From positions 1-64,000 of the forward strand of contig CAMVAJ010000005.1 of assembly GCA_947165425.1 (NCBI GenBank): a DNA stretch of 64,000 nucleotides. The letters run 5' to 3'. Origin of the DNA: an uncultured Clostridia bacterium. Lineage in GTDB: Bacteria; Bacillota; Clostridia; Christensenellales; Aristaeellaceae. The notes under the pieces were generated by a model. That model saw only the letters and a program-made list of their open reading frames with translations. It was not told the DNA's origin and ran no database searches. The position numbers were made by a program, and so were the translations under genes. This document shows positions 56,013 through 61,871 of the stretch, one piece after another; the stretch's first letter is position 1, and each line of letters begins with the position of its first letter.

Positions 56013-59000
56013 TTACTGCTGAGCCTGGTCAACGGGGTTGCGGTCCTTGTCGTACCGGCTCGTGACCACCAGCTCGCCGTCCGTGTTGTAATAGCCGTTC
56101 CAGCCTGCCACGCCGTCCGCGTTGTTGGTCGGCTTGTTGTAGCGGTCCAGGTACTGCTCGGAGATGATCCGGCCTTCCCCGTCGAATTTGCGCTGTACGC
56201 TGAAGTATCCGTCGGCGCAGTTCGTCTGCGCGTGGTTATGGTCGTAATAGCCCTCCCAGACGATATTCCCGTACTCGTCTTCCTCGTACTCCAGGATAGC
56301 GTAGCCGTCCGTGGTGGTGGTGGGCTTGCCGTTCTGGTCCAGGAAGGTCTCCTCGTGGACGCTGGTGACCGGATAGTACAGCGTGCTCTGGCCCCAGGCG
56401 CCGTTCGCCGCAGCGCAGCGGTTGCCCTGCGCGTCAAGATAATACCGGAAGTACTTCTCCACGCGGGCGTTGCTCAGATCATAGTCGAACTCGACCGCGG
56501 CATAGCCATTCTCGTTGGCAACCGGGTTTCCGTTCTCGTCCAGCCAGGTCTCCTTCGCCAGGAGGCCGTAGGCGGTGTAGTCACGCTGAACGCCGTAGAC
56601 GCCCTTGACGGCCGCGGCCGCGCCCGACTCGTCATAGTACTTCTCCAGCGACACCTGGCCACGGCTGGTGTACTCTCTGTTCACCGCCACAGCACCCTCA
56701 GGTCCGATCGCCGGGGTGCCCTGGCCGTCAAAGTAACGGCTCTCGATGGCCCGGTCATAGCGGTCGTAGGTCTGCAGCGTGGTGAGATGTCCCTCCTCAT
56801 CCTCCGCGGACTCGTCCATGACTTTCATCACGTAGGTACGGTTCTCCGCGTCCTCGGAGACCAGCTGACGGCTGGAGAAGCCGCCGATCGCGATCGGCTT
56901 CTTCTCGGCGTCCAGATAAGTCTCCTCCGCCACCCGTCCGCTCTCGGCATAGCTTACGCGGTGAATGGCGAAGCCCTCACGGCTGGGCGCATAGTGGTCG
57001 AACTCGTCGAAGTATTCCTCTGTAGTGAGACGGCCCAGTTCGTCATAGTCCACCATGGCGTAGGCGTACTGCGCGCCCTCAGGCACGACGCCGAGCTCCT
57101 TCGTGTCATAGTAGCGCTCGGAGGTCAGGTTGCCCAGGTTGTCGTAGGTGTAGACCGCCTTGGCGTACTTCATCGCTGTGTCCGTCAGGTTGCCGTCCGT
57201 ATCGTAGTAGGCTTCCTCGGTGACATTGCCCAGCTGATTGTAGGCCGTGGTCTTGCGGGCATAGCCGCGCTGGCTGGCCATCATCTTGCCGTCGCGGTCG
57301 TAGAAGCTGATCTCCGTCTCACGGCCCGCCAGGTCGTAAGCATAGCGCACCTCGGCATAGTCGTTGGCGTAGGCCACCGGGTTGCCAGCCGCGTCGAAGT
57401 AGCGGATGGACAGCACCTTGCCGTCGGGATCCACCTCGCGCTGGAGCGAGGAGTACCGGCCGGAGGTGTGGACCGCAGGCTTGCCCTGTGCGTTGAAGAG
57501 CTTCTCCTCCACGCAGTGGTTGCGGTCGTTGTAGGTGTAGGCAATCTCACAGTAGCCGTACTGGTTCCAGGTCAGCCCGCCCTCCTTGTTGTAGAAGGAT
57601 TCGCGGACGCAGTTGTTGCTGTTGTCGTAGGCATAGCCCACCGCGCTGTAGCCGCTGCTGAGGAGCTTCGGCTGGCCATTCACGTCCAGATACTCGCGCA
57701 GCACCAGCCGCTGACGCTCGTCCCAGGTGTTGCGCATCATGGCGTAGCCGCCCGCGCAGGGCACCGGGGTATCCAGGTTGTCCAGATAGGTCTCAGTCAG
57801 AATGTCGCCATTCTTGTCCACCGTCCGCAGGATGGCGGAATAACCGGCGCTGATGTAGGTGCGGTTGTACTTGTCGTCCAGATAGGTGATCCGGGTCAGG
57901 TACAGATTGTTGTCGTACTGATACAGCGCGGCGGCATAGCCGTCCTTGAACAGCGTGGGCTGGTCTGTGGTGTCCACATAGGTGGTGCGCCAGACCTTGC
58001 CCTGGGTGCCGTACTCGTAGCGGATGCCCGCGTACCCGGCGGAGATCATCGTGTTCAGGCCGCTGGTGTTCAGGTAAGTCTCGCTGATCTTGCGATCCTG
58101 ATCGTCGTAGGCGTAGACAATGCTGGCATAGCCGAACTGGGTCTCCACCGGCTGCAGCGCCGCGTTCAGGTTCTCCACGCGGATCAGGTTCCCCCGCGCG
58201 TCGTAGGATCTGCGGGTCGCCGCGGTCCGGGCGGTCAGGGAAGCGATGCGCTCGTTCTCGTCCAGATACTGCTCCAGGATCACATGATTGAACTTGTCAT
58301 ACTCGCGCTGCCAGACGCTGAAGCCCTCCGGCAGGCGGGTCAGCTTGTCCTGCTCGTCCAGATAGCGGACCTGCAGGCGGTTGCCAGCGTTGTCCAGGAT
58401 ATAGGCGATGGCCGAGTAGCCCTTCCGGACCGTCACGCGCTGCATGTTGGCGTCCAGATAGCTCTCCTTGGTCAGGCGGTGGCGCAGGTCGTACTCGTAC
58501 TCCGCCGCGGCGTAGCCGCCCTCGGTCATCACCACGTCATTGTTGAAGTAGTAGACGGTGCGGACGCGGTTGCCCGCGGCGTCGTAGGCGTGGGTGACGC
58601 GGTTGTAGCCGTCGGGCAGCTGGGTGGGCTGGCCCTCGAAGATGTACCAGGCCTGCTCGGTGCAGTTGCCGCTCAGATCCCGCTGATAGGTCACATAGCT
58701 GTAGGCGTTGTTCTGGAGGATATACGCGCCATCCTCGCCGAAGTAGCTCTCGCTGGTGAGATAGCCGTGGCTGTCCCAGGTCTGAACCTTGCGCGCATAG
58801 CCGACGGACTGGTTGAGCAGCCCGCCCTTGCCGTTGGTGAACTCCTCGGTGAGCAGGTTCCCGCGCTCGTCATAGGTGCAGGTCCGCGCCGCGTAGCCCT
58901 TGGAGGCGACGACTGGCGCGCCGTCCAGTCCATAGTAGGTCTCGCTCAGGACATTGCCCAGCGCGTCGTAGGTGTACTCCACGGCGGCGTAGTCAGCGCG

Positions 59001-61871: not shown

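Follow-up and report, generated by a model that had tools for sequence, protein, structure and literature searches.

A conserved cassette of a Wzz/BY-kinase, a long YD-repeat protein and an LCP-like protein in Clostridia, with a possible role in surface polysaccharide handling

The locus and the repeat array

The window, a stretch of 64,000 nucleotides from an uncultured Clostridia bacterium of the family Aristaeellaceae, carries three genes in the order Wzz/BY-tyrosine-kinase, YD protein and LCP-like protein (Table 1). The kinase ORF lies directly upstream of the YD gene and overlaps it by 86 bases, and the LCP-like gene starts 18 bases downstream of the YD gene. In orthologous loci, too, the cassette genes overlap or are separated by only a few bases. 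Sequence prediction indicated that the YD and LCP-like proteins are exported and seemingly unanchored and that the kinase fusion is a membrane-spanning protein. The N-termini of the YD orthologues resembled the signal peptide region of the YD protein in the window.

Table 1. Cassette genes and further features; positions refer to the window unless another locus is named.
Feature	Position	Strand	Remarks
Wzz/BY-type tyrosine kinase fusion	61786..63456	-	Wzz chain-length domain, PCP-2a-like; likely start at an internal ATG near 63423
YD-repeat protein	56013..61871	-	1952 aa; some 58 beta-hairpin repeats, each 32 residues long
Predicted Sec signal peptide of the YD protein	61794..61871	-	MLMKHFWRLGALLLILTMITAAGAAA^E; cleavage judged by eye
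Disordered linker of the YD protein	61152..61226	-	residues ~216-240; pLDDT <50; main site of length differences among orthologues
Best-conserved stretch of the YD protein	58224..58415	-	residues 1153-1216; 84% mean column conservation
LCP-like protein	54936..55994	-	352 aa; apparently cleavable signal peptide; W78, W203 and Q205 at the catalytic arginine positions
Open frame antisense to the YD gene	54894-59762	+	1622 aa
HlyD/MacB-type export genes	63792-64000 and L031:13792-20000		divergent, upstream of the window cassette
Pel-type exopolysaccharide operon	17026-29776	+	PelG (PF16933), PelF-like glycosyltransferase, DUF2194, NAD-epimerase/PelD-like, SpoIIE phosphatase; CotH, VTC and DUF4956 genes behind it
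Secreted protein	33674-40387	+	2237 aa; Listeria-Bacteroides repeats (Flg_new), DUF7601, SpaA-like domain
Sortase and Cna_B ORF	43160-48163	+	1667 aa; 14 Cna_B domains and, towards the N-terminus, a sortase domain, all in one reading frame
Second YD protein and PG_binding_1 protein	L058:1041-8492		YD protein of 2098 aa; directly upstream of the cassette
PTP-like phytase gene	L042:1556-2611		in the window's own genome (contig C7), adjoining an incomplete stand-alone YD gene

Autocorrelation of the YD protein gave a sharp peak at lag 32 (BLOSUM mean +0.25), followed by lags 64 and 96, against a maximum of -0.73 for shuffled sequences. A cyclic 32-position profile scored 2120, compared with at most 66 for shuffles, and covered 1759 residues; it resolved 47 units in which 20 or more residues aligned, along with degenerate ones. 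Residues ~543-1664 formed a nearly unbroken 32-residue register, and residues 1-540 and 1665-1850 contained more degenerate repeats. Strands counted by hand in AlphaFold2 models gave 34 hairpins up to residue ~1171 and 24 beyond, 58 altogether. The 1952 residues showed neither a toxin tip nor an RHS core motif, and neither an anchor nor a sorting signal. The TIGR03696 profile for the RHS core had no match in the protein, and neither the PxxxxDPxGL motif of RHS proteins nor LPXTG occurred in any of 18 YD orthologues. A sequence-only reading had described a secreted protein of 1952 aa with about 57 consecutive units and without RHS core, toxin tip or sorting motif; the ORF and its strand, the signal peptide, the lag-32 periodicity, the hairpin count and the motif and profile searches all agree with that description.

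Long frames antisense to the YD gene, up to 2300 aa, were also present at orthologous loci and probably arise from codon usage in the repeats. The HlyD/MacB-type genes were not a conserved neighbour of the cassette in the relatives examined; ABC-type genes lay upstream in several of them.

Fold and constant repeat number of the YD protein

Two AlphaFold2 models, covering residues 28-1190 and 800-1952 and each based on an alignment of 17 sequences, had mean pLDDT values of 87 and 86, respectively. As the sequence-only reading had proposed, such modelling served as a check on the repeats, and it returned one confident beta-hairpin per unit. The pTM values were 0.53-0.60, so that the hairpins were confident and the global curvature was not. 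In Foldseek searches, the top matches of both models were the shells of Rhs effectors, Tc proteins and teneurins, aligned over full length with E-values of about 1e-31 to 1e-30. TM-scores of the partial chains against these shells were only 0.13-0.27, with rmsd values of 24-38 A. The models therefore point to a local architecture of the RHS/YD type, with a global winding that differs or is poorly modelled. A search of BFVD returned mainly MORN-repeat proteins at low TM.

At the sequence level, Pfam RHS_repeat (PF05593) matched the YD protein weakly, with 24.4 bits at a cut-off of 22, and TIGR01643 reached 8.8 bits, under its cut-off of 15.8. A PF05593 search of the window's own genome gave no match, and a sequence search against solved structures with the YD protein yielded nothing useful. 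WG_beta_rep and other Pfam families were below cut-off. No toxin domain was matched at the C-terminus, which was conserved and not variable. RHS proteins of known structure share a conserved C-terminal region, with the PxxxxDPxGL motif in toxins (PMC8765631). The YD protein is thus of the RHS/YD type by its modelled fold and, weakly, by sequence. The earlier separation from RHS/YD toxins holds for the missing core motif and toxin domain, but not for the fold.

Across 153 pairwise comparisons of 18 YD orthologues, which were 48-86% identical in the mature part, zero gains or losses of units were detected. A first indel test had flagged 14 of 45 pairs and was repeated on trimmed proteins. In these, indels of at least nine residues fell almost all in the disordered linker; those outside it were a masked stretch in L050 and two small indels in a single pair, which differs near residue 400. 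Within the regular region, units were 58% identical to the same-numbered unit in other species, compared with 24% between units, and 94% of units had their best match in the same-numbered unit of another species. Stand-alone YD paralogues of the same bacteria ranged from 1072 to 2157 aa, were 27-49% identical and differed by indels of about 32, 64 or 96 residues. These steps provide an internal control, showing that the repeat type turns over outside the cassette; the control is not perfect, since cassette orthologues and stand-alone paralogues differ in divergence. The fixed unit number suggests an assembly of set dimensions, for instance a scaffold, a ruler or a conduit, and not an adhesin of variable size.

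Of the stand-alone YD genes, one was located between sugar nucleotidyltransferase and dehydratase genes (L040), and another had polysaccharide deacetylase and sugar transferase genes nearby (L041). A third adjoined a PG_binding_1 gene (L043), as does the second YD gene of L058.

Cassette partners and co-inheritance

The kinase fusion matched PF02706 and TIGR01007 above cut-off. Its Walker A, A' and B residues and the tyrosine tail were conserved in 16 orthologues, which identifies it as a BY-kinase of the PCP-2 type. The LCP-like protein matched PF03816 with 48 bits over the cut-off, only over positions 3-102 of 150. A profile search found solved LCP proteins with an E-value of 2e-12, corresponding to the N-terminal half of the LCP fold, to which the protein was assigned. 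It was aligned with solved LCP proteins and an LCP protein of its own genome (L067 was left out of the comparison). In this alignment, a TWD containing W78 is at the PRD motif and W203-L-Q205 is at the R-x-R motif, the second assignment resting on a weaker alignment than that of W78. W78, W203 and Q205 were invariant in 17 LCP-like orthologues. LCP ligases depend on conserved arginines, R118 and R219 in TagT and R149 and R266 in LcpA of A. oris (PMC7831098, PMC6381275). These were absent from the LCP-like protein in all 17 orthologues. Because the arginines are replaced, the LCP-like protein is predicted from its sequence not to be a ligase.

Cassette members were searched in 301 genomes of the window's family. 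The LCP-like orthologue was carried by 37, the YD orthologue by 38 and the BY-kinase by 41. All 37 LCP-like carriers held the YD gene, adjacent in 36, and 36 also had the kinase. Kinase matches without YD were few, and some were fragments at contig ends. In a further set, of 61 relatives, each of the three genes was present in the same seven genomes, and the next-best kinase and LCP matches were at most 36% identical. Of 397 sampled genomes of the order, only members of the window's family gave matches, and among 392 sampled genomes of the class the sole match was the window's own genome. Distribution was patchy inside genera. Single-contig genomes of genus g52 hold the cassette, which is therefore not an assembly artefact.

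Nineteen YD loci were collected, all except one being orthologues, from Clostridia metagenome assemblies of mainly rumen and gut origin; the remaining match, from Butyrivibrio, was distant (27%). The kinase preceded the YD gene at every orthologous locus checked, and the LCP-like gene followed it in 16 of 17 loci with a complete YD gene. The exception was L063, where YD is followed by capsule-type genes and an LCP-like gene was not detected. In genome G214 of the 301-genome set, the LCP-like gene and the YD gene were on different contigs (C14 and C40). These two exceptions may be one genome. Distances of the YD and LCP-like proteins correlated with r=0.88, which may reflect shared descent only. 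Together, the BY-kinase, YD and LCP-like genes are a well-supported conserved cassette without prior description; a search of the open-access literature returned no YD-repeat protein described in a capsule cassette.

Capsule/EPS genes or a LoaP-like NusG paralogue followed the cassette in 13 of 17 fetched relatives, with the capsule/EPS genes often placed after this LoaP-like antiterminator. At 12 loci, the LCP-like gene was followed by the NusG paralogue and/or CapD, DegT and EPS sugar-transferase genes; the LoaP-like matches were below the curated cut-off. L063 was the thirteenth locus with such synthesis genes, though without the LCP-like gene, and the sequence of L059 was too short for a verdict. 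LoaP, UpxY and similar NusG paralogues are often encoded next to long operons that they activate (PMC7819879). The window itself was an exception, with an ADP-ribosylglycohydrolase gene and then an MBOAT acyltransferase gene after the cassette and no capsule genes. The two sugar transferases of its genome were located on other contigs. Since the synthesis genes vary among loci and the cassette is constant, a role independent of glycan structure is indicated.

Proposed role, alternatives and known systems

An association of the YD protein with the capsule system is highly probable. The sequence-only reading had offered a polysaccharide-associated scaffold or a long extracellular beta filament. 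The first proposal fits the evidence and gains strength from an obligate cassette that heads capsule clusters; the models, confident in the hairpins but not in the global curvature, speak neither for nor against the second. The YD protein could well be an exported, serotype-independent, non-toxin component of the surface polysaccharide (capsule/EPS) machinery that guides or retains glycan outside the membrane.

The mechanism by which it might do so is put forward tentatively. Polymerisation at the membrane would be under the control of the Wzz/BY-kinase. In the wall space outside the membrane, the YD hairpin array together with the LCP-like protein would bind either the wall or the polymer as it emerges, and so guide or retain glycan without the usual covalent LCP ligation. 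Carbohydrate binding by RHS repeats has been proposed (PMC3482391). In Gram-positive bacteria, EPS release is described as mechanistically unknown (PMC12220298), and a dedicated, obligate exported partner of Wzz/BY-kinases would offer a way into the question of how finished capsule or EPS crosses or leaves the wall. In addition, the YD/RHS fold would gain a non-toxin role in bacteria, and an LCP protein would be seen to be kept for a purpose other than ligation. A more specific version is unlikely at present: the fixed-size Rhs/teneurin-type array would form a wall-spanning conduit or ruler for the Wzz/BY-kinase polymer in single-membrane bacteria, with the non-catalytic LCP protein as glycan-binding adaptor. 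If true, the array would do the job of Gram-negative outer-membrane exporters. At the usual beta-strand spacing of 4.8 A, 116 strands in a straight sheet would span some 55 nm, a length on the scale of a thick wall, which is arithmetic on an unproven shape.

The hairpins might alternatively wind into a closed, hollow shell of the Rhs/teneurin kind that encloses a partner protein or glycan as cargo. In solved structures, RHS-repeat proteins form cocoons (PMC8765631), and both halves of the YD protein aligned over full length with such shells. The low TM-scores and high rmsd values speak against closure, although modelling in two parts could itself prevent it. Furthermore, the protein lacks the C-terminal RHS core or plug and the PxxxxDPxGL motif, and no match to an N-terminal plug domain or a cargo domain was obtained. 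A closed shell is rather unlikely.

Adhesin repeat arrays usually vary in number, and the constancy of the YD units over deep divergence, together with a gene inseparable from that of the kinase, makes it quite unlikely that the YD protein is a secreted matrix protein or adhesin merely co-regulated with the capsule genes. Binding to plant fibre or neighbouring cells would nevertheless suit a protein with a signal peptide and no anchor. Most source samples came from fibre-rich habitats, and stand-alone paralogues are present in the same genomes. The repeat family and fold would also allow a degenerate polymorphic RHS/YD toxin that has lost its tip. This reading was rejected as very improbable: the protein is intact in 18 orthologues, residues 1857-1920 are among the best conserved, and it lacks a variable C-terminus, a toxin domain and the RHS core motif.

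With RHS/YD proteins, such as T6SS Rhs effectors, Tc toxin B/C and teneurins, the YD protein shares beta-hairpin YD repeats, but it has a regular 32-residue unit and lacks the RHS core motif, a plug, an autoprotease and a toxin, and in the cassette it has obligate capsule-type neighbours and a constant length. As in Gram-positive cpsABCD (LCP, phosphatase, Wzz, BY-kinase), a Wzz domain, a BY-kinase and an LCP-fold protein stand beside variable synthesis genes. In contrast to cpsABCD, the kinase is fused to Wzz in PCP-2a style, CpsB is missing from the cassette, a protein of 1952 aa lies in the middle and the LCP-like protein lacks the catalytic arginines. LCP ligases (TagT/U/V, Cps2A, A. oris LcpA) have the N-terminal half of the LCP fold in common with the LCP-like protein, in which the equivalents of TagT R118/R219 are Trp and Gln and no retained TM anchor is evident. 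The Wzc/Wza pair of Gram-negative group 1 capsules likewise joins a fused Wzz/BY-kinase to an extracytoplasmic export or retention component; the YD protein is neither an OPX lipoprotein nor an outer-membrane channel, which limits the analogy to function. Altogether, the cassette is a variant on the RHS/YD fold and on the Wzz/BY-kinase/LCP capsule head, both of which were already known.
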